From: Variovorax sp. Root318D1
GTDB lineage: Bacteria > Pseudomonadota > Gammaproteobacteria > Burkholderiales > Burkholderiaceae_C
Length of the DNA: 64,000 bases
NCBI RefSeq assembly: GCF_001424835.1
Contig: NZ_LMCQ01000001.1
Coordinates: forward strand, 156,284 to 220,283
Direction: 5' to 3'
Shown: in pieces, positions 48,963 through 64,000 of the stretch
Layout: each line of letters begins with the position of its first letter
Position numbering within the stretch: the stretch's first letter is position 1
Notes under the pieces: model-generated
What the model saw: only the letters and a program-made list of their open reading frames with translations
The model's database searches: none
Told to the model about the DNA's origin: nothing
Program-made: the position numbers and the translations under genes

Positions 48963-49931
48963 TCACTCGGCCTTGATGTTTGCCTCTTTGACCACGCGGG
49001 ACCAGCTCTTCAGGTCGGATTCAATGACGGCCGCCATCGCTTCCGGCGTGCTCGAGCGAACCTCGATACCCTGCTTGGCGAAAATTGCCTGGACGTCCGG
49101 CATGGCAAGGACGCGCACGACGTCGGCATTCGCCTTGCGGATCACGTCGGCGGGCGTCTTCGCCGGCGCCACGAAGCCCGACCAGATGTCGACGGAAAAG
49201 CCGGGCAGGGACTCGCCGACCGTCGGCACCTGCGGCAGCGACGCATAGCGCTGTGCGCCCGTACCGGCCAGGAGCCGCAGGCGCCCCGATTCGATATGCG
49301 GCAGCAATGCGTTCGCCTGGCCGAGGAACATGTCCACGCGCCCCGCGAGCAGATCGGGAAGCGCTGCCTGTGCGCCCTTGTAGGGAACATGCTGGATCGA
49401 TGTGCCGCTCATGCTCTTGAGCAGTTCGATCGAGAAGTTCTGCGGCGAGCCCGGTCCGCCGGACGCGTAGGTGAGTTGCCCCGGCCGCGCCTTCGCGAGC
49501 GCCAGCAGTTCCTTGACGTCCTTGGCCGGGAGTGCGGGCCGGACCACGAGCAGGTTCTGCACCGAGATCGCGAGTCCGATGGGGGCGAAGTCTTTGACCG
49601 GATCGTAGGAGACAGTGCTGAGCAAGGGCGCGAAGACCAGCACGCTGTTCGGGGCCACCAGCCAGGTGTAGCCGTCCGCCGGCGCGTGCGCCACCGCCTT
49701 GGCCGCAATCGCACCGCCGGCGCCCGGCTGGTTCTCCACGATCACCGGTTGCCCCCAGATCTCCTGGAGCTTTTGCGCCACGGTACGGGCGAGCACGTCG
49801 GGGCTGCCGCCAGGTGTGAATGGCACAACGATCCGGACGGGCTTGTTCGGATAGGCCTGCGCAACGGCAAGCCCCGGAATGAGGCTCGACAGAGCCAACG
49901 CCACGAAGGCGCAGAAACGCCATGCGTACAT
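48963..49931 (-). CDS. Bug/TctC-family solute-binding protein
   Basis: This 322-residue secreted receptor has a signal peptide (residues 1-25, ending AVAQA) and the Bug signatures QAYPNKPVRIVVPFTPGG, QPVIVENQPGAGGAIAA and APADGYTWLVA, ending with an Ile-Lys-Ala-Glu tail. It should bind a carboxylate in the periplasm. No TctA/TctB genes are in the window, so it is an orphan receptor. GGGAG lies before ATG 49931. It lies between the SDR and hydroxyacid dehydrogenase genes of the operon. Confidence 0.92.
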   Translation of the reverse strand: MYAWRFCAFVALALSSLIPGLAVAQAYPNKPVRIVVPFTPGGSPDVLARTVAQKLQEIWGQPVIVENQPGAGGAIAAKAVAHAPADGYTWLVAPNSVLVFAPLLSTVSYDPVKDFAPIGLAISVQNLLVVRPALPAKDVKELLALAKARPGQLTYASGGPGSPQNFSIELLKSMSGTSIQHVPYKGAQAALPDLLAGRVDMFLGQANALLPHIESGRLRLLAGTGAQRYASLPQVPTVGESLPGFSVDIWSGFVAPAKTPADVIRKANADVVRVLAMPDVQAIFAKQGIEVRSSTPEAMAAVIESDLKSWSRVVKEANIKAE

Positions 49932-49975
49932 GTGTTTGTCTCCCAGGTGAACGCGGCGAGGCGACCGGCCCGCCA

Positions 49976-50956
49976 TCAAGCCCGCAAGGTGCGCAGCACC
50001 TCGGGGTTGTGAACGGCGATCGGCTCACCGGCCTCGAAGGCCAGGATCTGCCGGAACGCATTGCCGTACGCGATTTCGTGGTTGTCGATTTCCACGTAGC
50101 CGATGTGCGGGGTGCACACCGCGTTCGGCAGCGACAGCAGCGGATGGGCAGCGCCGAACACGGGTTCGTGTTCCAGCACGTCGACCGCTGCCATGCCGGG
50201 CCTGCCTGCCTTCAACGCCGCCGCCAGCGCGCCAGGCGCGATCAGCTCGGCGCGGCTGGTGTTGACCAGCAGCGACGTGGGCTTCATGAGCGCCAGGTCG
50301 CTGGCCGTGACGCCGCCGCGTGTGTCGTCGTTGAGTCGCAAGTGCAGCGAGATCACGTCGCAGCGCCGGAAGAAGTCGGCCCGGTCGCTTGCCATCGCGA
50401 GCCCATCGGCCTCGGCCGCGATGCGGCTGCCTTCGCGGCCCCACACGAGCACCGGCATCTCGAAGGCCCTGGCGTAACCGGCGATCACCTTTCCGATGCG
50501 GCCGTAGCCGAGGATGCCGAGCGTGCGGCCGCGCAGCCCGCGTCCTATCGTGCTCTGCCAGCGCCCCTGCTTCAGCGCTTCGACTTCAAAGGGAATGTGG
50601 CGCAGGGCCGCAATCATCAAGCCCCATGTCAGTTCCGCCGCCGCGTAGGAAGGGCGCGACGTCAAGGTCGCGCTGACAAGCACGCCATGGCGCGTGCATG
50701 CCGCAAGATCGATGTGCGGAACGTGGCCGTTCTGGCTGATCAGCTTGAGCTTGGGCAGGCGCTGCAGCAGCGCCTCGCCGATCGGCGTTCTCTCGCGCAG
50801 GAGCACGATCGCTTCCACGTCCCGGAGCCGATGGGCGAGCACGTCGAGGTCGCTCACGCAGTCGGTGTAGGTGGTGACGGATTTGCCCGCCATGAGGCTG
50901 AAGCAGTCCAGCTTGCGGACAACGTCCGCGTAGTCGTCGAGGATGGCGATGTTCAT
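49976..50956 (-). CDS. D-2-hydroxyacid dehydrogenase family protein
   Basis: This 326-residue NAD-dependent enzyme of the SerA/D-isomer family has TLGILGYGRIGKVIAG for nucleotide binding, the arginine in NTSRAELI, the glutamate in EHEPVFG and the catalytic histidine in TPHIGYVEI. It may oxidise a 2-hydroxy acid, or reduce a 2-oxo acid produced by the RraA-like enzyme encoded upstream. It is not obviously SerA, which is normally longer or has an ACT domain. ATG 50956 is used. Confidence 0.9.
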   Translation of the reverse strand: MNIAILDDYADVVRKLDCFSLMAGKSVTTYTDCVSDLDVLAHRLRDVEAIVLLRERTPIGEALLQRLPKLKLISQNGHVPHIDLAACTRHGVLVSATLTSRPSYAAAELTWGLMIAALRHIPFEVEALKQGRWQSTIGRGLRGRTLGILGYGRIGKVIAGYARAFEMPVLVWGREGSRIAAEADGLAMASDRADFFRRCDVISLHLRLNDDTRGGVTASDLALMKPTSLLVNTSRAELIAPGALAAALKAGRPGMAAVDVLEHEPVFGAAHPLLSLPNAVCTPHIGYVEIDNHEIAYGNAFRQILAFEAGEPIAVHNPEVLRTLRA

Positions 50957-50968
50957 GGATGTTCAACT

Positions 50969-51694
50969 TCAGGCGTTCGTCGGCAGGTCCGCGACGGCCA
51001 GGCCTTCGTCGATGAGCCGGCATTTGCGCTCCTCGGCTGCGGCCTTCTTCAGGGCGAGTTCCAGCACTTCGCGCGCCCGGGTGCGAGGAATAAAGCACAC
51101 GCCGGTGTCGTCGGCAAATGCGATGTCGCCCGGAGAAACACGAACGCCGCCGATGTTCACGTCGCCGTTGATCTCGACGGTCTCGATGCGCCACTTGCCG
51201 GTCATTGGCGTCACTTCGGTGGCCCACACCGGGTAGCCGACGTTTTGCGAGTGCGGCACGTCACGGATGCCGCCGCTGACGATGGCGCCTGCCTCGCCCT
51301 GGCGCTTGCCGGTTTGCGCCGAGATGCCTCCCATGTTCGAGACACCCGCCACGCCGTCGATCACGATGACGTCGCCCGGCTCGGCCAGGTTGTGCGCTTC
51401 GAACTCCGCCATCTTGTTGACCTTGGCGCGGGCCGCTTCGTACGGGTGCTGGCGCAACGCGATGTTGCGCACCGTCAATGCAGGGCCAACGATGCAGGCG
51501 CCTGGCATGGTCGGCCTGAACTGGCTGGCGGCCAGCACGCCCGTGATGCCGAGCTCGTCCATGATGTCCGACAGGATGCCGCTCGCATCGCCGAGCGAGC
51601 GGAAGCCGGCGATCAGATCCGGCTCGGGCCGGGGGAGTGTCGTCATGAGGATGCGCTCGGGCGCGATCTTTCCGGTGAGTTTCCGTTCTGCCAT
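50969..51694 (-). CDS. RraA/4-hydroxy-4-methyl-2-oxoglutarate aldolase family protein
   Basis: The 241-residue protein belongs to the RraA-like family that includes class II pyruvate aldolases (HMG/CHA aldolase) of protocatechuate and gallate 4,5-cleavage, and the RNase E inhibitor RraA. The conserved GGIRD with Arg-Asp and the upstream PGDVIVIDG are visible. The operon context, with a hydroxyacid dehydrogenase and a carboxylate receptor, points to the aldolase or decarboxylase role. Start ATG 51694 with AGGA upstream; the gene ends 12 bases before the dehydrogenase start. Confidence 0.9.
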   Translation of the reverse strand: MAERKLTGKIAPERILMTTLPRPEPDLIAGFRSLGDASGILSDIMDELGITGVLAASQFRPTMPGACIVGPALTVRNIALRQHPYEAARAKVNKMAEFEAHNLAEPGDVIVIDGVAGVSNMGGISAQTGKRQGEAGAIVSGGIRDVPHSQNVGYPVWATEVTPMTGKWRIETVEINGDVNIGGVRVSPGDIAFADDTGVCFIPRTRAREVLELALKKAAAEERKCRLIDEGLAVADLPTNA

Positions 51695-55416: not shown

Positions 55417-56211
55417 CTACAGGCGCGACGCGTTGCCGCGATCCTCGGCCACGACATCGTTGCGCAGGATGCCGATGCCCTCGATCTCGACTTCAATGGT
55501 GTCGCCCACCTGGATCGGGCCCACGCCCGCGGGGGTGCCGGTCATGATCATGTCGCCCGGCAGCAGGGTCATGTATCGGCTCAGGTACGCAATGATTTCC
55601 GGTACCGAAAAGAGCAGGTCCGCGGTCGTGCCGTTCTGGCGCACGGCGCCGTTGACCCGCGTGATGATGCCGAGCTTCGACGGGTCCAGTCCGGTGGCGA
55701 CCACCGGCCCCATCGGCGCGAAGGTGTCGTAGCCCTTGCCCGCCAGCAGGCAGCCGAACTCGCTTTCGCGGCGCTGCAGCACCCGGTCGCTCACGTCGTT
55801 GCCGCAGGTGTAGCCGAGCACATGGTTCAGCGCATTGGCCGCGGACACGTGGCGCGCCTTCTTGCCGATCACGACAGTGAGCTCGCCTTCGAAGTGGATG
55901 TTCTGCCCGTCGTCGGGATAGACGATCGATTCGTCCGGACCGATCACGCTCGTGCTTGGCTTCATGAACAGCACGGGCAACTGCGGCACCGCCTTGCCGA
56001 CCTCGTTGGAATGCGCGACGTAGTTGTAGCCGAGCCCGAACACGCGCGGGCGCTCGATGGGCGCGAGCAGGCGCACGGCGGAGGGCGCATCGATCGCGCC
56101 GCCGCGCTTCAGGCCCTCGAGCGGCGAGCTCTGCAGCCGAGCGATCGAGCCGTCGTTTTCGATGATTCCGTAGTGGACGCATTCGTCCAACGCGTATCTG
56201 GCGATGTGCAT
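55417..56211 (-). CDS. Fumarylacetoacetate hydrolase (FAH) family protein
   Basis: This 264-residue FAH-fold enzyme has the metal-binding glutamates in IHFEGELTVVIGKKA, an aspartate in TCGNDVSDR and the late motif LLPGDMIMTGTPAGVGPI. The family includes hydratases, isomerases and decarboxylases that act after meta-cleavage of aromatic rings (HpaG and others) as well as fumarylpyruvate hydrolases. It diverges from the transporter/extradiol operon and shares its operator pattern, so it probably belongs to the same pathway. Its exact reaction is unknown. Confidence 0.88.
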   Translation of the reverse strand: MHIARYALDECVHYGIIENDGSIARLQSSPLEGLKRGGAIDAPSAVRLLAPIERPRVFGLGYNYVAHSNEVGKAVPQLPVLFMKPSTSVIGPDESIVYPDDGQNIHFEGELTVVIGKKARHVSAANALNHVLGYTCGNDVSDRVLQRRESEFGCLLAGKGYDTFAPMGPVVATGLDPSKLGIITRVNGAVRQNGTTADLLFSVPEIIAYLSRYMTLLPGDMIMTGTPAGVGPIQVGDTIEVEIEGIGILRNDVVAEDRGNASRL

Positions 56212-56249
56212 GGTGGTTCCGATTTCTTCCGTTGTAGCCGATGTCTGAT

Positions 56250-56282
56250 GCTAACGTTAGCTCTCAAACAACCGGTTGTCAA
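56250..56282 (-). promoter_or_regulatory. FAH promoter with a 12-bp operator palindrome over the -10 box
   Basis: On the minus strand TTGACA (56282-56277) is 17 bases from TAACGT (56259-56254). The -10 lies inside the perfect palindrome GCTAACGTTAGC (56250-56261). A second palindrome, ACAACCGGTTGT (56268-56279), overlaps the -35; the two centres are 18 bases apart. The centre AACGTT and the position over the promoter resemble LacI-type operators. Confidence 0.65.
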
Positions 56283-56316
56283 CGAAGGCGCTACAAGTGG
56301 TTTCTTCTGAAAGCCG

Positions 56317-56362
56317 TTGACAAGCAGGATGAGCGTTTGCCAGAATATGCGCAAACGTTAGC
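56317..56362 (+). promoter_or_regulatory. Promoter of the livH operon with matching operator at the start point
   Basis: TTGACA at 56317-56322 is 18 bases from CAGAAT at 56341-56346, giving a start near 56353. GCAAACGTTAGC at 56351-56362 covers that start and differs by one base from the operator at 56250. The two operators are 101 bases apart centre to centre, suitable for loop formation by a tetramer. One repressor would silence both directions. Confidence 0.65.
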
Positions 56363-56383
56363 ACAAACAAGGAGACATACTTC

Positions 56384-56434
56384 ATGAACAAAGCTGGACC
56401 GCATCGGCGGCTCGGGACCAGGAGCTGGCCATGA
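56384..56434 (+). CDS. 16-codon leader peptide coupled to livH (candidate)
   Basis: A short frame starts at ATG 56384 and encodes MNKAGPHRRLGTRSWP. GGAGA at 56371-56375 provides a ribosome site, and its stop TGA overlaps the permease ATG at 56431 (ATGA). The coupling could set translation of the operon. It may be a remnant of a lost gene, since the binding-protein gene that often precedes livH is absent here. It is too short to test by codon use. Confidence 0.4.
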   Translation: MNKAGPHRRLGTRSWP

Positions 56435-57279
56435 GCGCGACCCTGCTCGCCCAATCGGCCATCGGCGGCTTGCTGCTAGGTGGCATCTACGGATTGCTCG
56501 CACTCGGCCTCAGCGTGAGCTGGGGTTTGCTGCGCCTGGTGAACCTGAGCCACTTCGCCCTGGCCTTCCTTGGCGCCTATCTCACCTACCAGCTCGGAAC
56601 GCAGTTCGGCATTGCGCCGTGGCTGTCGGCGCTGGTCGTGGTGCCGGCCTTCTTCGTCGCCGGCATTGCCTTGCACGCGCTGTTCGTGCGCTTCCAGGTC
56701 AGCGAGTTCGCGTCGATGCTGGTCACCTTCGGCATCACCATCCTGATCGAGTCGCTGATCCAGTGGCTCTGGTCCGCGGACTACCGCAGGTTCGAGTCCG
56801 GCTATGCGCAGGCGTCGCTGCGGATCGGACCGCTGTTCGTGCCGGTGCTGGAACTCGCCGCCTTCGCTTGCGCGGCGCTTCTCGCGGTCGCCGCATGGGC
56901 CGGACTGAACCGGACCCTGCTCGGCAAGGCGCTGCGCGCAGCCGCGCATGATGGCCCGATTGCAGCGGCCTTCGGCATCAACGCCAAGCGCCTTTCGTAC
57001 CTGCTGGCCGGCCTGTGCGCGGCCTCGGCCGGCATTGCCGGTGTGTTCATCGCGCTGACCTCGACGCTCGCGCCTTCGCAGATCGAAGCGTGGATCGGGG
57101 TGGTGTTTGCGGTGGTGATCATCGGCGGGCTTGCGCGTCCGCTCGGTGCGCTGGCGGCCGGCTGCCTGATTGGCGTTTCGGAGTCGGTGACCATGGCGGC
57201 GGTCAACCCCGCATGGGCACCGCTGGTGGCTTTCTCGATCCTGATCGTCCTGCTGCTGTGGAGGCCCAGATGGCTCTGA
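56431..57279 (+). CDS. Branched-chain amino acid-type ABC transporter permease (LivH family)
   Basis: This 282-residue inner-membrane protein has about eight hydrophobic helices. The start GGLLLGGIYGLLALGLSVSWGLLRLVNLSHFALAFLGAY is typical of LivH, and SYLLAGLCAASAGIAGV is in the coupling region. GGAG at 56421-56424 supports ATG 56431. It pairs with the LivM half of the next protein. In catabolic clusters such HAAT transporters often import aromatic acids, which fits the neighbours here. Confidence 0.92.
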   Translation: MSATLLAQSAIGGLLLGGIYGLLALGLSVSWGLLRLVNLSHFALAFLGAYLTYQLGTQFGIAPWLSALVVVPAFFVAGIALHALFVRFQVSEFASMLVTFGITILIESLIQWLWSADYRRFESGYAQASLRIGPLFVPVLELAAFACAALLAVAAWAGLNRTLLGKALRAAAHDGPIAAAFGINAKRLSYLLAGLCAASAGIAGVFIALTSTLAPSQIEAWIGVVFAVVIIGGLARPLGALAAGCLIGVSESVTMAAVNPAWAPLVAFSILIVLLLWRPRWL

Positions 57280-59057
57280 CCTCACGACATGCACGCGCTG
57301 CGGCGGTGGCGGCCGTGGCCGGCCTGATCGCGCTGCCCTTTGCAGGCGTTGCCGACTTCTACCTCTCGTACCTCTATGTCATCTTCTTCTGGATCGCGCT
57401 GGCTACCAGCTGGGGCATCCTGAGCGGCTACTCGGGCTACTGGAGTTTCGGCCACGCGGCGTTCTTCGGTACCGGCGCCTACACGACGGCCACGCTGGCC
57501 GGCAAATGGGGCGTGCCCTTTCTGCTGACCATTCCGGCGGCGGCCGGAATCGCGGCGGCGCTCGCACTCGGCATCGGGTGGGTGGTGTTCCGCATCAACA
57601 CGCTGCGCGCCGAGTTCTTCGCGCTGCTCACGCTCTCCGTGACCTACGTGCTCGCGGCCGTCATTTCCAATACGCCGATCGACGGTGGTGGCGGGGTCTA
57701 CCTGAGCAACGTCTCCATCCCCCAGCTCGGCACCACGGTGCCGGGGGCCATCTATCTGCTGGGGCTCGTGCTGGCGTTCACCGCGCTCGCGGTCTCGCGC
57801 CGAATTCTTCGCTCGCGCCTGGGAGCCGGCTTGCTGGCCATCCATGACGACGAGGACGTGGCGGAGGTCAAGGGCGTGCCCACCCTGCATTACAAGCTCG
57901 TCGCCTTCGCCATCTCTTCGGCAATTGCCGGCGCGGCCGGCGCGATCCAGGCCGCCTACGTGGGCTACGTCACCGTCGGCGAGACCTTCTCGATCACGGT
58001 GCCGCTGTACGTCGTGCTCATGAGCATCCTCGGTGGCGCGCGCCACTGGGCGGGGCCGGCCATCGGCGCCACCTTGATCACCGTTGCGCTGAGCCTTTTC
58101 GTTGGCGGCGGGCATGCCGAGCTCGGCCGCGCCGGGGTCGCGCTCGCACTTGTGGTCGTGATCCTGGTCCTGCCCGAGGGCATCGCACCCAGCCTGTTCC
58201 GCCGCTTCGCTCGAGGAAAGAACGCGGCGCCCGTAACTGCACCGGCACCCGCACCTGCGACCGCGAGCGAGCCGGGCAACGTCGTCGCCATGAAGCCGCC
58301 GGCCGTCCATGTCGCCGCGACCGCAAGGCCCTTGCTGACATGCCGCGCGGTCGTGAAGTCCTTCGGCGGCATCCGGGCGCTGCAGGGCGTCGACCTGCAG
58401 GTCGAGGAAGGCGAGATCCTCGCGCTCGTCGGACCCAACGGCTCCGGCAAGTCGACCCTGATCAACATGATCAGCGGGCACTTTCCGCTCAGCTCCGGCA
58501 GCATCGAGCTGCAGGGCGCATCGATCGACGGCCTGGCGCCGCACGAGGTCGCGCGCCGCGGTATCGCGCGCACCTACCAGATCCCGCGCCTCTTCAATCA
58601 CCTGACGGTGCTGGAGAACGTGCGGCTGTGCGCCTTCTTCGGCGGCGCGCAGGACGCGGCCGGCGAGAGCCCCGATGAGCTGGCACTACGCTGGCTCGCG
58701 TTCACCGGCCTCGAAGCCAAGGCAGACGTGTTGCCGCCCGCACTCAACCTGCACGAGCGCAAGTTCGTCGAACTCGCGCGCGCCCTGGCGGCGCGGCCGC
58801 GCCTCTTGTTGCTGGACGAGGTGCTTTGCGGATTGACCCCGACCGAAGTCGACCACGCCATCGCAATGATCCGCAAGATCAGGGCGGGCGGCACCACCAT
58901 CGTCTTCGTTGAGCACCTGATGCGCGCCGTGGTCGCGCTTGCCGATCGCATCGCGGTGCTCGACCAGGGCACGCTGCTCGCCCTCGGGCTTCCGCGCGAA
59001 ACGATGCAGGACCCCCGCGTCGTCGGCGCCTACCTGGGGACCGCCCATGCTGCTTGA
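57270..59057 (+). CDS. LivM-LivG fusion: branched-chain-type ABC permease joined to its ATPase
   Basis: The 595-residue protein joins two subunits normally encoded separately. Residues ~1-310 form a LivM permease (YSGYWSFGHAAFFGTGAYTTA, then LRAEFFALLTLSV). A Pro/Ala-rich linker runs to about 350, and a LivG-type ATPase follows with Walker A GPNGSGKS at 388-395 and Walker B LLLDEVLCGLTPTE. The ABC signature is degenerate (LNLHERKFVEL instead of LSYGxQ). ATG 57270 overlaps the livH end by ten bases; GGAGG precedes it. The second ATPase, LivF, follows. Confidence 0.92.
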   Translation: MALTSRHARAAAVAAVAGLIALPFAGVADFYLSYLYVIFFWIALATSWGILSGYSGYWSFGHAAFFGTGAYTTATLAGKWGVPFLLTIPAAAGIAAALALGIGWVVFRINTLRAEFFALLTLSVTYVLAAVISNTPIDGGGGVYLSNVSIPQLGTTVPGAIYLLGLVLAFTALAVSRRILRSRLGAGLLAIHDDEDVAEVKGVPTLHYKLVAFAISSAIAGAAGAIQAAYVGYVTVGETFSITVPLYVVLMSILGGARHWAGPAIGATLITVALSLFVGGGHAELGRAGVALALVVVILVLPEGIAPSLFRRFARGKNAAPVTAPAPAPATASEPGNVVAMKPPAVHVAATARPLLTCRAVVKSFGGIRALQGVDLQVEEGEILALVGPNGSGKSTLINMISGHFPLSSGSIELQGASIDGLAPHEVARRGIARTYQIPRLFNHLTVLENVRLCAFFGGAQDAAGESPDELALRWLAFTGLEAKADVLPPALNLHERKFVELARALAARPRLLLLDEVLCGLTPTEVDHAIAMIRKIRAGGTTIVFVEHLMRAVVALADRIAVLDQGTLLALGLPRETMQDPRVVGAYLGTAHAA

Positions 59058-59754
59058 AGTCAGAAACCTCCACGTCTCCCATGGCGACGCGCCCGCGCTC
59101 TGGGATGTATCGCTCGACGTGGCCGCGGGCCAGATCGTCGCCGTGGTCGGGCCCAACGGCGCGGGCAAGAGCACGCTGATCAACACCATCGCCGGCATCC
59201 TGCGTGCGCGACAGGGCGAGATCCGCATCGATGGCAAGGACATCGCGAAGATCCCGAGCCACCGCGTGTGCGATCACGGCATCGCCATTGTTCCGGAAGG
59301 GCGGCGCCTGTTCACGCACATGACTGTGCTCGACAACCTCGAACTCGGGGGCTGGCGAGCCGACGCGCGCGGCTCGGCAGAAGGCTCTCTCGAAAGGGTG
59401 TTCTCGCTCTTTCCGATCCTCAGCGAACGCCGCCACCAGATCGCCGGCTCGATGTCTGGCGGCCAGCAGCAGATGGTGGCCATCGGCCGCGCGCTGATGT
59501 CACGTCCCCGGCTGCTTTTGATGGACGAGCCCTCGCTCGGCCTTTCGCCGGCGGTGGTCGAGGACATGTTCCGGATCATCCGGACGATCAACGAGCGCGG
59601 CGTGGCCGTGCTGCTGGTCGAGCAGAACATCCACAAGGCGCTCGAGATGGCGCACCACGCCTATGTCATCGAGCAGGGCCGCATCGTGGCTTCGGGAAAA
59701 GCGGACACGCTGCTCAGCAACCCTCGCATCCGGGAGGCCTATCTTGGCGTCTGA
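59047..59754 (+). CDS. Branched-chain-type ABC transporter ATP-binding protein (LivF family)
   Basis: This 235-residue ATPase has Walker A GPNGAGKS near residue 36, IVPEGRRLFTHMTVLDNL (Q-loop region), signature MSGGQQQMVAIGRAL and Walker B LLLMDEPSLGLSP. Unlike the fused LivG half, it has a clean signature. It would form the ATPase pair with that half to power the importer. ATG 59047 overlaps the preceding stop by 11 bases, and its own stop overlaps the cupin gene start. Confidence 0.94.
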   Translation: MLLEVRNLHVSHGDAPALWDVSLDVAAGQIVAVVGPNGAGKSTLINTIAGILRARQGEIRIDGKDIAKIPSHRVCDHGIAIVPEGRRLFTHMTVLDNLELGGWRADARGSAEGSLERVFSLFPILSERRHQIAGSMSGGQQQMVAIGRALMSRPRLLLMDEPSLGLSPAVVEDMFRIIRTINERGVAVLLVEQNIHKALEMAHHAYVIEQGRIVASGKADTLLSNPRIREAYLGV

Positions 59755-60355
59755 TCTTTCATCGGGCGAGGGCATGCCCCTGACCATCCGCCGCGTTGTC
59801 ACGGGCCACGACACAACGGGCGCATCCGAGGTCGCGCTCGACACCGGCGTGCCGCGTTCCCACGCCTTCCAGCATGTTCCGGGCATGGTGTCGCGCCTGG
59901 TGTGGGTGAGTGCGCCGGTGCCAGGGCTGCCGTTCGACGGACTCGATCCGACACCCTCCGTTGCCAGCTTCGTTCCCGCAGCGGGTGCCACGCGCTTCCT
60001 GATCGTCACGTTTCCGCCGGACAGCGTGTTCGCGGCGCGGGAGTTCGATCCGGCTGCTGCGGCTGCGGAGAACTTTGCCGTGAGCCCCGGTCTGGCCGAG
60101 TGCTTCGAGCCTGATGGCATGCACGCGACGCCCACCATGGACTACGCCGTCGTGCTCGACGGCGAGATCTGGATCGAGCTCGACGAGGGGCGCTCCACCC
60201 ATCTTCGGCGCCATGACGTGGTGGTGCAGCACGGCACCCGCCACGCATGGCGCAACAAGAGCGAGCGGCCGGCGACGCTCGCCTTCGTGCTGATCGGCGC
60301 TTCCGCCGCGACACGCAACGACACCCCATTCGACACAGGGAATATTCATGAATGA
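59744..60355 (+). CDS. Cupin-domain protein of the transporter operon
   Basis: The 203-residue protein has a C-terminal cupin (about residues 125-200): HATPTMDYAVVLDGEIWIELDEG, then RRHDVVVQHGTRHAWRN, resembling cupins that occur beside gentisate- or extradiol-type genes. The N-terminal part (TIRRVVTGHDTTG...) is characteristic of the same group. The start is TTG 59744, with GGAGG at 59732-59736; ATG 59774 is an alternative. Metal binding is likely through the HxT...H pattern, but the reaction is unknown. It overlaps the enolase-like gene by eight bases. Confidence 0.82.
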   Translation: MASDLSSGEGMPLTIRRVVTGHDTTGASEVALDTGVPRSHAFQHVPGMVSRLVWVSAPVPGLPFDGLDPTPSVASFVPAAGATRFLIVTFPPDSVFAAREFDPAAAAAENFAVSPGLAECFEPDGMHATPTMDYAVVLDGEIWIELDEGRSTHLRRHDVVVQHGTRHAWRNKSERPATLAFVLIGASAATRNDTPFDTGNIHE

Positions 60356-61640
60356 CACAAGGATCACGCGGCTGCATGGGCGGCGCGTGTGGGATTCACG
60401 CGGACGGCCGACGGTGGAGGCCGAGGTCACGCTGGCCTGCGGCACCGTGGCGCGCGCCATCGCGCCCGCCGGTGCCTCCACCGGCAGCGGCGAGGCACTC
60501 GAGCTGCGCGACGGCGGCTCTCGCTTCGGCGGCCTGGATGTGGCGAAGGCGCTCGGCTCGATGCGCGAGATCGCGGCTTTGCTCGTCGGGCTCGATGCAC
60601 GCGACCAGGTCGGAATCGACGCACGCATGGTGGCGCTCGACGGCACGCCGAACCGCAGCCGCCTGGGCGGCAATGCGATCGTGGCCGCATCGATGGCGGT
60701 GCTGCACGCCGCGGCGTCGGCGGCGCAGCAACCCCTGTGGCGTTATCTGGCTGGCGAGCAGCCGGTGCGCATGCCGCTGCCCGAAGTGCAGATCTTCGGC
60801 GGCGGCGCGCATGCCGCGCGGCGCGTCGATGTGCAGGACTTCATGGTGATGTGTCCGGCCGCCGGCAGCTTCAGCGAGGCGCTCGAATGGACCGCGGAGA
60901 TCTATCTTGCCGCCGGTGCATTGATGAAGAAGCAAGGCAAGCTGCAAGGGGTTGCCGACGAGGGCGGCTACTGGCCGGCCTTCGATTCGAACGAACAGGC
61001 GCTCGACACGCTGATGCAGGCGATTGCCGATGCGGGCCTGCGCGCGGGCGAGCAGGTCGGCATCTCGCTCGACATCGCGGCCTCCGAATTCGGCCGTGAC
61101 GGGCGCTACACGCTGGCGCTGGAAGACCGTAGCCTCGACACCGGCGAGATGATCGCGATGCTCGGCCGTTGGCTCGACGCCTACCCGATCCTGTCGATCG
61201 AAGACCCGCTTGCCGAAGACGACGCGGCCGGCTTCCGGCAGTTCACCGCAGCCTATGGCGGCCGCTGCCAGGTGATCGGCGACGATTTTCTGGTGACCAA
61301 CGCGGCGCGCGTGGCGGCTTCCGCCGCCGATGGCTGCACGAACGCGGTGCTGATCAAACCCAACCAGGCGGGCACGGTCAGCGAGACGCATGCGGCGCTC
61401 AAGGCCGGCAAGCAGGCGGGTTTTGGAACCATCGTTTCGGCGCGCTCGGGCGAGACCGAGGACGTGACCATCGCGCATCTCTCCGTCGGCTGGGACGCGG
61501 GCCAGCTCAAGGTCGGTTCCTTCTCGCGCTCCGAGCGCATGGCGAAGTGGAACGAGGTCCTGCGCATCGAAGAGTCGCTGGGCCGCGACGCCGTGTTCAG
61601 CGGTTGGTCCGCCTTGCCGTTTCGACATCACGCGCAGTGA
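60348..61640 (+). CDS. Enolase paralogue with altered active site
   Basis: This 430-residue protein is clearly of the enolase (phosphopyruvate hydratase) family: VWDSRGRPTVEAEV, GASTGS, ADEGGYWPAF, SLDIAASEF, SIEDPLAEDD, IGDDFLVTN, LIKPNQAGT and RSERMAKWNE are intact, including metal ligands and the lysines. Two catalytic positions differ: the glutamate of QEFM is Asp164 in VQDFMV, and the histidine of SHRSGETED is Ala365 in VSARSGETED. The loop GGEHADNN reads GGAHAARR, with His155 kept. It lies inside a transport/catabolic operon, so it probably handles another 2-hydroxy acid rather than 2-phosphoglycerate. Confidence 0.9.
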   Translation: MNDTRITRLHGRRVWDSRGRPTVEAEVTLACGTVARAIAPAGASTGSGEALELRDGGSRFGGLDVAKALGSMREIAALLVGLDARDQVGIDARMVALDGTPNRSRLGGNAIVAASMAVLHAAASAAQQPLWRYLAGEQPVRMPLPEVQIFGGGAHAARRVDVQDFMVMCPAAGSFSEALEWTAEIYLAAGALMKKQGKLQGVADEGGYWPAFDSNEQALDTLMQAIADAGLRAGEQVGISLDIAASEFGRDGRYTLALEDRSLDTGEMIAMLGRWLDAYPILSIEDPLAEDDAAGFRQFTAAYGGRCQVIGDDFLVTNAARVAASAADGCTNAVLIKPNQAGTVSETHAALKAGKQAGFGTIVSARSGETEDVTIAHLSVGWDAGQLKVGSFSRSERMAKWNEVLRIEESLGRDAVFSGWSALPFRHHAQ

Positions 61641-61680
61641 ACGCCGCGCATCACTTCATCTCATCAGGAAAGACATCCCC

Positions 61681-62268
61681 ATGAATACGATCAGGCTGGC
61701 AGGCATTTCAGGAAGCCTGCGAAAAGCATCCAGCAACACGGCCATTCTCCGTACGCTTCAGGCATCGCTGCCAGCGGGCGTGGAGATGGCGCTGCTGCCC
61801 CTCGACGGCATTCCTTCGTACAACCAGGATCTCGATGGGCCCGGGCTTCCGGATGCCGTGCGGGAGTTCAAGGCGACGCTCGACGCGAGCGACGGCGTCG
61901 TGCTGTGCTCTCCCGAATACAACTTCGGAATGCCCGGCGTCTTGAAGAACGCACTCGACTGGGCGTCGCGGCCGGCGTTCGCCTCTCCGCTGAAGGGTAA
62001 GCCGGTGCTGGTGATGACCAGTTCGCCTGCATTCACCGGCGGCGTGCGCGCGCAAGCCCAGTTGCGCGACACGCTCGGCGGCACCTTGTCGCGCGTGATC
62101 TCCAGGCCCCAGATCGTCATCGCGGGCGTCAATACAAAGATCGAAGACGGGCGGCTGGCAGACGCCACGAGCCTGGCCTTCGCGCTCGAAGCCATCAATG
62201 ACCTGATCGCCGAGATCGGTTTGCTTCGCGCGGCGCGAGCCTTGTCAGCGCAGCCAGCCCTGGGCTGA
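61681..62268 (+). CDS. NADPH-dependent FMN reductase (flavodoxin-like)
   Basis: This 195-residue protein has GISGSLRKASSNTAIL for FMN phosphate, SPEYNFGMPGVLKNALDW with the family PEYN motif, and a closing TSSPAFTGGVRAQ. Relatives include chromate and quinone reductases and FMN reductases supplying monooxygenases. In this operon it could reduce a quinone intermediate or provide reduced flavin. No monooxygenase is visible in the window, though the operon continues beyond it. ATG 61681 follows 40 bases after the enolase-like stop. Confidence 0.9.
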   Translation: MNTIRLAGISGSLRKASSNTAILRTLQASLPAGVEMALLPLDGIPSYNQDLDGPGLPDAVREFKATLDASDGVVLCSPEYNFGMPGVLKNALDWASRPAFASPLKGKPVLVMTSSPAFTGGVRAQAQLRDTLGGTLSRVISRPQIVIAGVNTKIEDGRLADATSLAFALEAINDLIAEIGLLRAARALSAQPALG

Positions 62269-62314
62269 GCGGCAAGTCCTTTCCCTCTCAATCCAACCCT
62301 CCGCGAGGTTCCTC

Positions 62315-63322
62315 ATGCTGCCCGCAGTCAATCTTCGTCCGCCGTTCAACATCACGCGTGCCAGCCACGTCGTCCTCCATGTCGCCGATCTCGCAAGGAG
62401 CCGCGACTTCTACGTCAACATCGTCGGGCTCGTCATCTCGCAGGAGGGCGAAGGCGTCTGCTACCTGCGCGGGCTGGCCGAAGCCTGCCATCACAGCCTG
62501 GTGCTGGTGCAGTCGCAGGGCGGCGAGCAGACCTGCAAGCGAATCGGCTTTCGCGTCTTCTTCGAGGAAGACCTGGACAGCGCCTACGCGTTCTTCAAGG
62601 CCGAGGGGCTCGCTGCCGAATGGGTCGATGTTCCGCATCAGGGGCGCACGCTCCACGTGGAGGACCCGATCGGCACAAAGATCGAACTCTGCGCGCAGAT
62701 GGAGACGCTGCCGCGCATGTACCTGAAGGTCGAGAGCTTCACCGGTGCCCATGCGCAGCGTCTCGACCACTACCAGCTGCTGGCGCCGGACACCTACGCG
62801 CTGTGCGAGTTCTACAGCCGGCTGGGCTTTCGCAACTCCGAGTACATCGCCCATGGCGACAAGCTGCTGGGTGCATTCATGTACCGCAAGGGCACCTGCC
62901 TGGACCTGGCCATCGTCCAGGGCCAGGGGCCCCGCCTGCACCACTTCGCCTACACCGTCTCGGAGTCGCACAACATCTTCACGGCGTGCGACCTGGCGGG
63001 CAACTACGGCTACGCCGCTTCGGTGGAACGCGGGCCCGGGCGCCATGGGCCGGGCGGGATGCTGTTCGTCTATCTGCGTGATCCGGACGGTCATCGCGTG
63101 GAACTCTTCAACAGCCACTACCAGACCATCGACATCGAGATCGAACCCGTCAGGTGGGAGGCAGCCTCGCTGAGCACCAATGTGCGCTGGGGGATTCCTG
63201 CCCCCGCCCGCTGGTACTTCGAGGCCACCGCCTTCGCTAGCGCCGCGCTCATCGAGCCGGCCGAGAAACCCAATCCCCAAACGCTGGAGAGCTATGCGCT
63301 GGCGCTCTCCATGCAGAAATAA
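62315..63322 (+). CDS. Type I extradiol dioxygenase-like (VOC) protein, related to homoprotocatechuate 2,3-dioxygenase
   Basis: The 335-residue protein has two VOC domain pairs. In the C-terminal half the metal ligands of extradiol enzymes are present: His152 in RLDHYQLL, His210 in RLHHFAY and Glu263 in RVELFN. The overall pattern resembles homoprotocatechuate 2,3-dioxygenases, with SVERGPGRHG and RDPDGHRVE. The active-site histidine that family enzymes have in T-V-H-D appears as leucine here (GTCLDLAIV, Leu196). So either the substrate or the chemistry differs. It fits downstream of an aromatic-acid-type importer. Confidence 0.88.
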   Translation: MLPAVNLRPPFNITRASHVVLHVADLARSRDFYVNIVGLVISQEGEGVCYLRGLAEACHHSLVLVQSQGGEQTCKRIGFRVFFEEDLDSAYAFFKAEGLAAEWVDVPHQGRTLHVEDPIGTKIELCAQMETLPRMYLKVESFTGAHAQRLDHYQLLAPDTYALCEFYSRLGFRNSEYIAHGDKLLGAFMYRKGTCLDLAIVQGQGPRLHHFAYTVSESHNIFTACDLAGNYGYAASVERGPGRHGPGGMLFVYLRDPDGHRVELFNSHYQTIDIEIEPVRWEAASLSTNVRWGIPAPARWYFEATAFASAALIEPAEKPNPQTLESYALALSMQK

Positions 63323-63342
63323 AGACGAGAAAGGTCACTGCC

Positions 63343-63873
63343 ATGGCACGAGTCAAATATCTCCAACGTTCGGACACCGACGCCGACCAAGCCCTGTTCG
63401 ACAGGCTGGAACGCGAACGCAAGGTGCCCACCGCCAACATCTTCAGTGCGCTGGCGCACGCGCCGCAGGTGCTGGATGGGTTCATCTCCTATGCCAACAC
63501 GCTGCGCGGCTCCAAGCTGAGCCCCAAGCTTCGCGAGCTGGCGATCCTCACCGTGGGCCACTGCACCGCGTCGGCGTACGAAATTGCGCATCACCAGTCG
63601 CATGGTCTCAAGGCGGGCATCAGCGCGGGACAGCTCAAGTCCGTGCCCGACTTCGAAAGCTCTGCGCTCTTCGACGACGAGGAGCGCGCTGTCATGGCGC
63701 TGGCGCGCGAGTCGACGCTGAAGGTCGACGTGAGCGAACCCACGTGGCGCAAGGCCGCGGCCTTCCTGTCGGAGCGCGAGCTGGTCGAACTGGTGCTCAC
63801 GATCGGTTGGTACAACTCCGGCGTTCGCATCATGGGTGCGCTCGCCATCGAGCTCGAGGACGGATACCGCTGA
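63343..63873 (+). CDS. Carboxymuconolactone decarboxylase-family protein
   Basis: This 176-residue protein matches the CMD/AhpD fold: PTANIFSALAHAPQVLDGFISY, then LSPKLRELAILTVGHCTASAYEIAHH. The cysteine/histidine arrangement C-x5-E-x2-H resembles CMD-like proteins but is not the AhpD CxxC redox pair. Members act in protocatechuate degradation or as peroxidase-like helpers. Its position after the extradiol-like gene supports a part in the same pathway. ATG 63343 is used. Confidence 0.88.
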   Translation: MARVKYLQRSDTDADQALFDRLERERKVPTANIFSALAHAPQVLDGFISYANTLRGSKLSPKLRELAILTVGHCTASAYEIAHHQSHGLKAGISAGQLKSVPDFESSALFDDEERAVMALARESTLKVDVSEPTWRKAAAFLSERELVELVLTIGWYNSGVRIMGALAIELEDGYR

Positions 63874-63934
63874 CAGCCGCCGCACGCCCGGCCGGCGCCG
63901 TCCGGCCGGTCTTCCGAAATTCCAGGAGACAACG

Positions 63935-64000
63935 ATGAGCATCACCAGATTTCAACCACAGCGCCGAGTCCTTCTTGCCGCGGCCGGCACACTGATGCTG
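63935..64000 (+). CDS. Start of a secreted protein, cut off by the window end
   Basis: Only the first 22 residues are in the window. They form the start of a signal sequence: MSITRFQPQRRVLLAAAGTL, with a basic stretch (QRR) and then hydrophobic residues. AGGAG at 63924-63928 gives a clear ribosome site. It is probably the periplasmic binding protein missing from the Liv-type transporter operon, or a Bug receptor, but the type cannot be told from this fragment. Confidence 0.7.
   Translation, partial: MSITRFQPQRRVLLAAAGTLML

Follow-up and report, generated by a model that had tools for sequence, protein, structure and literature searches.

The question raised by the right-hand end of the DNA stretch analysed here (the window: 64,000 nucleotides of Variovorax sp. 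Root318D1, contig NZ_LMCQ01000001.1, positions 156284-220283, in a 5.75 Mb genome) is what an enolase paralogue does within a catabolic cluster, and on which substrate. The cluster (window positions 55417-64000; window numbering is used unless a contig position is stated) runs past the window edge, with further genes carried downstream on the contig, and the nearest named relatives of the enolase locus are Variovorax. From the window alone, the initial annotation had proposed that a Liv-type importer, a cupin, the enolase paralogue, an FMN reductase, an extradiol-dioxygenase-like protein, a CMD-family protein and a FAH hydrolase form one regulon, that the enolase and the dioxygenase each lack a family histidine, and that all serve a shared pathway, perhaps for an aromatic or cyclic hydroxy acid. 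The gene order and families hold up in open reading frames, profile scans and reading of translations, and the same gene set recurs across Burkholderiales, rhizobia and Streptomyces. The cluster is real and conserved, and it is probably misnamed by annotation. It is likely to be a LacI-controlled catabolic regulon by which a ring-shaped acid would be imported and opened, with a kinase and an altered enolase predicted to carry out the last steps and to yield phosphoenolpyruvate (PEP); taken whole, we give this reading about even chances.

The enolase paralogue (60348..61640, plus strand) is 47% identical to the canonical enolase of its own genome. Alignment with two solved enolases shows the same two substitutions, Ala365 (61440-61442) at the position of the canonical His and Asp164 (60837-60839) at that of the catalytic Glu, which we take to be His373 and Glu168 in yeast numbering. 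Yeast His373 lies near the leaving group. Among 80 subfamily members, one per collected locus, Ala365 is found in 79 (Gly in the other) and Asp164 likewise in 79 (Glu in the other), whereas all 15 canonical enolases compared keep both Glu and His. The family histidine is thus substituted, as had been claimed, and not merely shifted in the alignment. The remaining features are those of phosphopyruvate hydratase, with which the protein shares family and length: the base Lys337 is present in 79 of the 80 (the last was unread), the general-acid Glu205 in 79 (Gln in one), and the metal ligands Asp242, Glu285 and Asp312, the phosphate-binding Arg366 and Ser367 and the carboxylate-binding Lys388 are intact in all 80; His155 is also retained. 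In addition to the two substitutions, the subfamily differs from enolase by Trp209 and Arg159, both invariant (80/80), and by its usual kinase partner. By motif and spacing, the matching residues of the Mycobacterium tuberculosis enolase are Glu163, Glu204, Lys335, Arg364 and Lys386, and Glu163 is reported to touch the substrate carboxylate and to be among the residues mutated (PMC10619443). Judged by its residues, the window enzyme has kept the means to bind and deprotonate a substrate, in surroundings that are altered.

An unrooted tree built from 39 sequences places the altered subfamily with the Trp on one side of a branch with 100/100 support; 13 of its 36 inner branches have weak support, and the meeting of long branches is flagged by the program. 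Two Streptomyces enolases, at about 43% identity, have the same two changes without the Trp, and one of them (locus L204) is encoded in a second Streptomyces cluster together with a kinase, a D-2-hydroxyacid dehydrogenase (HADH), FAH, a Zn dehydrogenase and a ring hydroxylase. In locus L121, the two enolase groups are found next to each other. By this tree, the Ala/Asp changes may have arisen once or twice. The two clusters with enolases of this second group, at L121:6483-15244 and L204:5023-15405 (Streptomyces sp. LUP47B), also have HADH, LacI, FAH and polysaccharide-deacetylase-like genes.

The subfamily is sparse. Counting only members above 500 bits, since an E-value of 1e-135 lets canonical enolases pass, it occurs in 20 of 399 family genomes and 9 of 398 phylum genomes, the latter count leaving out G381 (510 bits), whose enolase keeps the His. 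In the same genus, only the source genome itself, one of the five listed, has it. A canonical-type enolase, 43-48% identical to that of the window, is also present in 27 of 28 genomes checked, the exception being a metagenome bin in which none was found; with these copies retained, the altered enzyme is ruled out as a replacement of the housekeeping one. In the same 28-genome sample, extradiol matches of at least 60% occur in the four genomes with the full gene set and in none of the other 24.

What the window did not reveal is a kinase. Beyond its edge, at contig 222587-223591, lies a gene of the APH family (PF01636, 54.7 bits against a cut-off of 23.2). The shared pathway drawn up from the window genes stands as regards the one regulon, but it missed this kinase, whose presence suggests that the substrate of the enolase is a 2-hydroxy acid in phosphorylated form. 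The coupling of the two genes extends well beyond the present cluster. Of 80 loci with a subfamily enolase, 41 also have the extradiol gene (hereafter full loci) and 39 do not, and a kinase (counted at 45% identity or more) is present in 73: 36/41 with the extradiol gene and 37/39 without. The arrangement differs between the two groups: the kinase is directly upstream of the enolase on the same strand in 33 of the 39, and in none of the 41, where it sits elsewhere in the cluster. Residues of its catalytic motif (HGD..K / D.E) are kept in 71-73 of the 73 kinases. In the 39 other loci, nothing within the locus matches the extradiol, CMD, cupin or dehydrogenase genes, and the kinase is missing only from L092 and L110. 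Full loci, for their part, contain CMD (41), dehydrogenase (41), FAH (40), kinase (36), HADH (36), cupin (35) and LacI (31); those without kinase and HADH are L047, L048, L060, L072 and L079, the last three of which are cut by contig ends.

A second draw of genomes, from family and phylum, gave a similar result. A kinase lies close to 23 of the 26 altered enolases drawn; leaving out L139, a locus already in the first set as L064, the count is 23 of 25. Of the three enolases with no kinase nearby, two, L139 included, belong to full-set loci on short stretches of sequence, and the third locus is truncated by a contig end. The substituted Ala could be read in 25 of these 26 enolases, and all three canonical-scoring loci had His. 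A confinement of the enolase to this operon is ruled out by the 39 of 80 loci without ring-cleavage genes. The initial annotation had treated it as one of two enzymes that define the chemistry; both altered active sites are indeed fixed across two phyla, but the enolase is not specific to one pathway. With corramycin and methylthioribose kinases of the APH fold, the cluster kinase has a weak sequence match and the catalytic motif in common. Some homologues bear the name methylthioribose kinase, an identity ruled out by a score of 51.6 bits, far under the cut-off of 275, and the usual neighbour of the cluster kinase is an enolase.

The second altered enzyme (62315..63322, plus strand) is a two-domain VOC protein that aligns to homoprotocatechuate 2,3-dioxygenase (HPCD) over residues 8-306 of 335, and scores 291.3 bits against the HpaD model TIGR02295, under its cut-off of 321.4. 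All 41 full-cluster homologues retain the metal ligands His152, His209 or 210 and Glu263, as well as the equivalents of Tyr253 and His244. In contrast to HpaD and HPCD, all 41 have Leu196 (62900-62902) at the position of the acid-base His200, so that for this protein too the reported lack of a family histidine is confirmed. Because two Bradyrhizobium cousins (54-55% identity) and two HpaD-type proteins retain His200, its loss looks, by comparison of these homologues, derived within the lineage of this operon. The two cousins, the nearest ones that keep the His, adjoin FAD-hydroxylase-like genes (by eye). Chance or misalignment as the cause of the missing histidines in both enzymes is ruled out by residue conservation and by the comparisons with canonical enolases and with cousins.

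The distribution of a palindromic operator supports a single regulon for these genes, as had been proposed. Pattern scanning places a perfect copy, GCTAACGTTAGC, at 56250..56261 and a second operator, GCAAACGTTAGC, at 56351..56362, both between the FAH and LivH genes. Allowing up to one mismatch, the whole genome has GCTAACGTTAGC at three places, none of them outside this cluster: these two and one between the LacI and porin-like genes. The reversed control pattern occurs at 13 places in the same genome. At the same stringency, the 41 full loci hold 145 sites, against 0, 0, 1, 0 and 0 in five order-1 shuffles, and a perfect copy is present in 36 of them; the 39 loci without the extradiol gene hold two sites, against none in three shuffles. 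A looser first count, at up to two mismatches, gave 210 sites against 31 in single-base shuffles. Across the 80 loci together, the operator adjoins FAH in 37 cases, HADH in 28, LacI in 27, the enolase in 18 and LivH in 12, where a site was assigned to any gene starting from 250 bases before to 450 after it and divergent neighbours were both counted. The same operator is found in Variovorax, Paraburkholderia, Bradyrhizobium, Rhizobium and Streptomyces, and is presumably bound by the LacI protein of the cluster. In Streptomyces loci, for instance at L051:9172-9642, an FMN-reductase-like protein (by eye) is encoded divergently from the enolase and next to an operator; it is not matched by the Burkholderiales protein.

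The operator also bears on the likely product of the enolase. In five Rhizobium loci (L052, L065, L074, L075 and L077), a perfect copy lies at or near the start of a PEP carboxylase gene, identified at L052:17718-20495 by PF00311 (1038 bits) and in the other four by similarity to it. In each of six Rhizobium genomes, the single PEP carboxylase match is the one at this cluster; in the sixth (L064), where the gene is at the end of the locus, there is no perfect operator by the gene within the stretch examined. That an enzyme consuming PEP shares the operator is consistent with PEP as the product of the enolase.

Each reaction and substrate of the resulting route, which would resemble meta-cleavage, is predicted. 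The Liv importer would bring in an aromatic or cyclic hydroxy acid, which, judging from the gene families, the FMN reductase, Zn dehydrogenase and cupin may prepare or process, and whose ring the HPCD-like protein may open at its His-less metal site. The CMD and FAH proteins could then decarboxylate, isomerise or split the chain. A released 2-keto acid would be reduced by HADH, and the 2-hydroxyl of the 2-hydroxy acid so released would be phosphorylated by the APH-type kinase. Finally, the enolase, with changed surroundings of the leaving group, would remove the 3-substituent by elimination, leaving PEP or a substituted PEP. The aromatic or cyclic character of the proposed route draws support from the HpaG/HpcE-like FAH protein, the HpaD-like extradiol protein and the hydroxylase-like neighbours of its cousins; the substrate itself we infer. 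A more specific version is tentative and rather less probable than the general route: the kinase would phosphorylate a 3-substituted lactate, X-CH2-CH(OH)-COO-, from which the enolase, its leaving-group pocket rebuilt, would expel X rather than water to form PEP as a new point of carbon entry, the His-less extradiol enzyme would activate O2 via its substrate instead of a protein acid-base group, and the kinase-enolase pair would be a portable module of aromatic, sugar-acid and other pathways in two phyla, converting unusual hydroxy acids to PEP. Sulfite-exporter-like or sulfite-oxidase-like genes were seen by eye near the pairs in L050, L056, L057 and L081; as most other loci showed none, sulfolactate was set aside as the substrate and retained merely as an example in which X is not OH.

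Several observations weigh against a ring-opening, PEP-forming route, at least as the only role of the pair. Ring opening by the His-less protein is doubtful, because HPCD without His200 is reported to have a "vanishingly small" rate (PMC10760822). PEP carboxylase is behind the operator in one genus only, and its proximity in Rhizobium may be a matter of chance. A Bradyrhizobium subfamily member (L110:10001-11311) has Glu, Gln and Gly at three key places, and is perhaps drifting or of other function. Furthermore, the genes around the pair are varied: UxuA-family genes occur near it in L086 and L114 (by Pfam) and L091 (by similarity), MR-type dehydratases with SDR and FAH proteins in L088 and L196, a HpcH aldolase in L104 (by Pfam), TRAP-type transporters near some pairs and housekeeping-like genes around several (both by eye). 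Since the pair occurs in such sugar-acid-like, aldolase, transporter and housekeeping-like contexts, the substrate class of the module itself is probably a small 2-hydroxy acid, with ring-cleavage genes as one of several feeders; the substrate may be L-glycerate or a 3-substituted lactate.

These contexts lend themselves to a different account, which is possible though we consider it unlikely: that the cluster degrades a sugar acid or non-aromatic cyclic acid, with the FAH protein splitting a 2,4-diketo acid to pyruvate and glycerate (most simply L), the kinase forming 2-phospho-L-glycerate, the enolase being altered for the other hand of C2 and producing PEP, and the HPCD-like protein serving as a non-oxygenase metal enzyme. 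The UxuA-family and dehydratase neighbours would be expected on this account, as would PEP carboxylase behind the operator and an extradiol site without its acid-base His, and the FAH protein also matches diketo-rhamnonate hydrolase. The same protein, however, scores higher with HpaG, the extradiol cousins adjoin hydroxylase-like genes, and the full regulon has HADH (36/41), of a family that makes D-acids. An improbable account makes the enolase a phosphopyruvate hydratase of ordinary or weak activity, or else a relic without catalysis, and has the kinase act on D-glycerate in a salvage unit recruited to many operons. The enolase scores 476.4 bits with the phosphopyruvate hydratase model TIGR01060, passing the curated cut-off of 300, which also counts against a new reaction, and HADH is of the phosphoglycerate dehydrogenase / glyoxylate reductase type (by family profile and solved-sequence comparison), as a hydroxypyruvate reductase would be. 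Against this stand two catalytic positions whose changes are fixed in 79 of 80 homologues, and the canonical-type enolase present anyway in 27 of 28 genomes. If ordinary 2-phospho-D-glycerate were made, the route favoured here would suffer too, but D-glycerate alone leaves the altered enolase unexplained, as the cell's own enolase would do.

It is very improbable that the cluster is simply a known aromatic pathway, that of 4-hydroxyphenylacetate (hpa) or of flavonoids (fde/ifc), with reshuffled genes. Homologues of HpaD and HpaG do occur together, as in hpa meta-cleavage, and the closest solved sequence to the FAH protein is 1gtt (HpaG); both proteins are under their equivalog cut-offs, and the cluster has CMD, cupin, Zn dehydrogenase, HADH, kinase and enolase genes in place of the remaining hpa steps. 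Among the operator-linked genes, inspected partly by eye, none was recognised as a semialdehyde dehydrogenase, hydratase or aldolase of the hpa type, and His200 is lost. About 2.6 kb past the porin-like gene, at contig 229739-233664 (L002:839-4764), is a group of lower meta-cleavage-like genes with no operator (by eye): two hydratase/decarboxylase-like, an acetaldehyde dehydrogenase-like and a 4-hydroxy-2-oxovalerate aldolase-like gene.

The fde/ifc comparison has a counterpart in the same genome. A sister cluster about 145 kb upstream (contig 60770-71920; L115:767-11923), fde/ifc-like and assigned partly by eye, has FAD-hydroxylase-like, dehydrogenase, cupin, VOC, FAH, IclR-like and TRAP-like genes; its dehydrogenase, cupin and FAH proteins are 52%, 49% and 35% identical to those of the window cluster. 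In Variovorax ifc, a monooxygenase, a glyoxalase-type dioxygenase and two cupins are reported to be active in isoflavone breakdown (PMC11069340); VOC dioxygenase and cupin gene classes are shared with flavonoid A-ring cleavage. The window cluster differs by its added kinase-enolase module; kinase, enolase and phosphotransferase are never named in the main text of that paper. Likewise, no FAD hydroxylase or other ring hydroxylase was recognised among the window-cluster open reading frames, whereas the sister cluster has an FAD hydroxylase (by eye).

The other genes of the cluster are as follows. On the minus strand, the HpaG/HpcE-like FAH-superfamily protein (55417..56211; PF01557, 222.9 bits) diverges from the importer operon, which lies on the plus strand and encodes a LivH-type permease (56431..57279, an open reading frame with homologues in other loci), a fused LivM-LivG permease and ATPase (57270..59057, one 595-residue frame) and a LivF-type ATPase (59047..59754). 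The periplasmic binding protein, of which only the start is in the window (63935..64000, plus strand; contig 220218-221441), was assigned by Pfam, and both permeases and both ATPases by reading of translations. Between them on the same strand are the cupin (59774..60355), with a weak PF07883 match under the curated cut-off and with His117, Asp123 and His157 conserved in the alignment of all 36 homologues, the enolase, a NAD(P)H:FMN reductase or flavodoxin-fold protein (61681..62268; PF03358, 122 bits), the extradiol protein and the CMD-family protein (63343..63873; PF02627, with a YE[IV]xHH motif). Beyond the window, the contig continues with the Zn-type dehydrogenase (221463-222590), the kinase, HADH (223617-224582) and the LacI-type regulator (224604-225650), the last two on the strand opposite to the kinase, and the porin-like gene (225867-227156); the regulator and the porin were assigned by reading. 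A separate catabolic-looking group of TctC-like, D-2-hydroxyacid dehydrogenase-like and RraA-like genes is found on the minus strand at 48963-51694 (by eye).

Each of the enzyme families is known, but the literature searched describes neither the way they are combined nor the two active-site changes fixed here: no publication with this gene order, and none on this enolase, the kinase pairing or the gene set, was found in a search with subscription journals mostly outside its scope. The locus brings to light a discrete enolase subfamily in which two catalytic positions differ and which is coupled to a kinase in Pseudomonadota and Streptomyces, together with an extradiol-type enzyme that has lost, as a fixed trait, a residue described as critical in the relative studied best. 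The named homologues listed for the former are called enolase or phosphopyruvate hydratase, names that would be misleading if the reading favoured here is true. In that case, the cluster would offer a candidate for another reaction of the enolase family and for a catabolic route leading straight to PEP.

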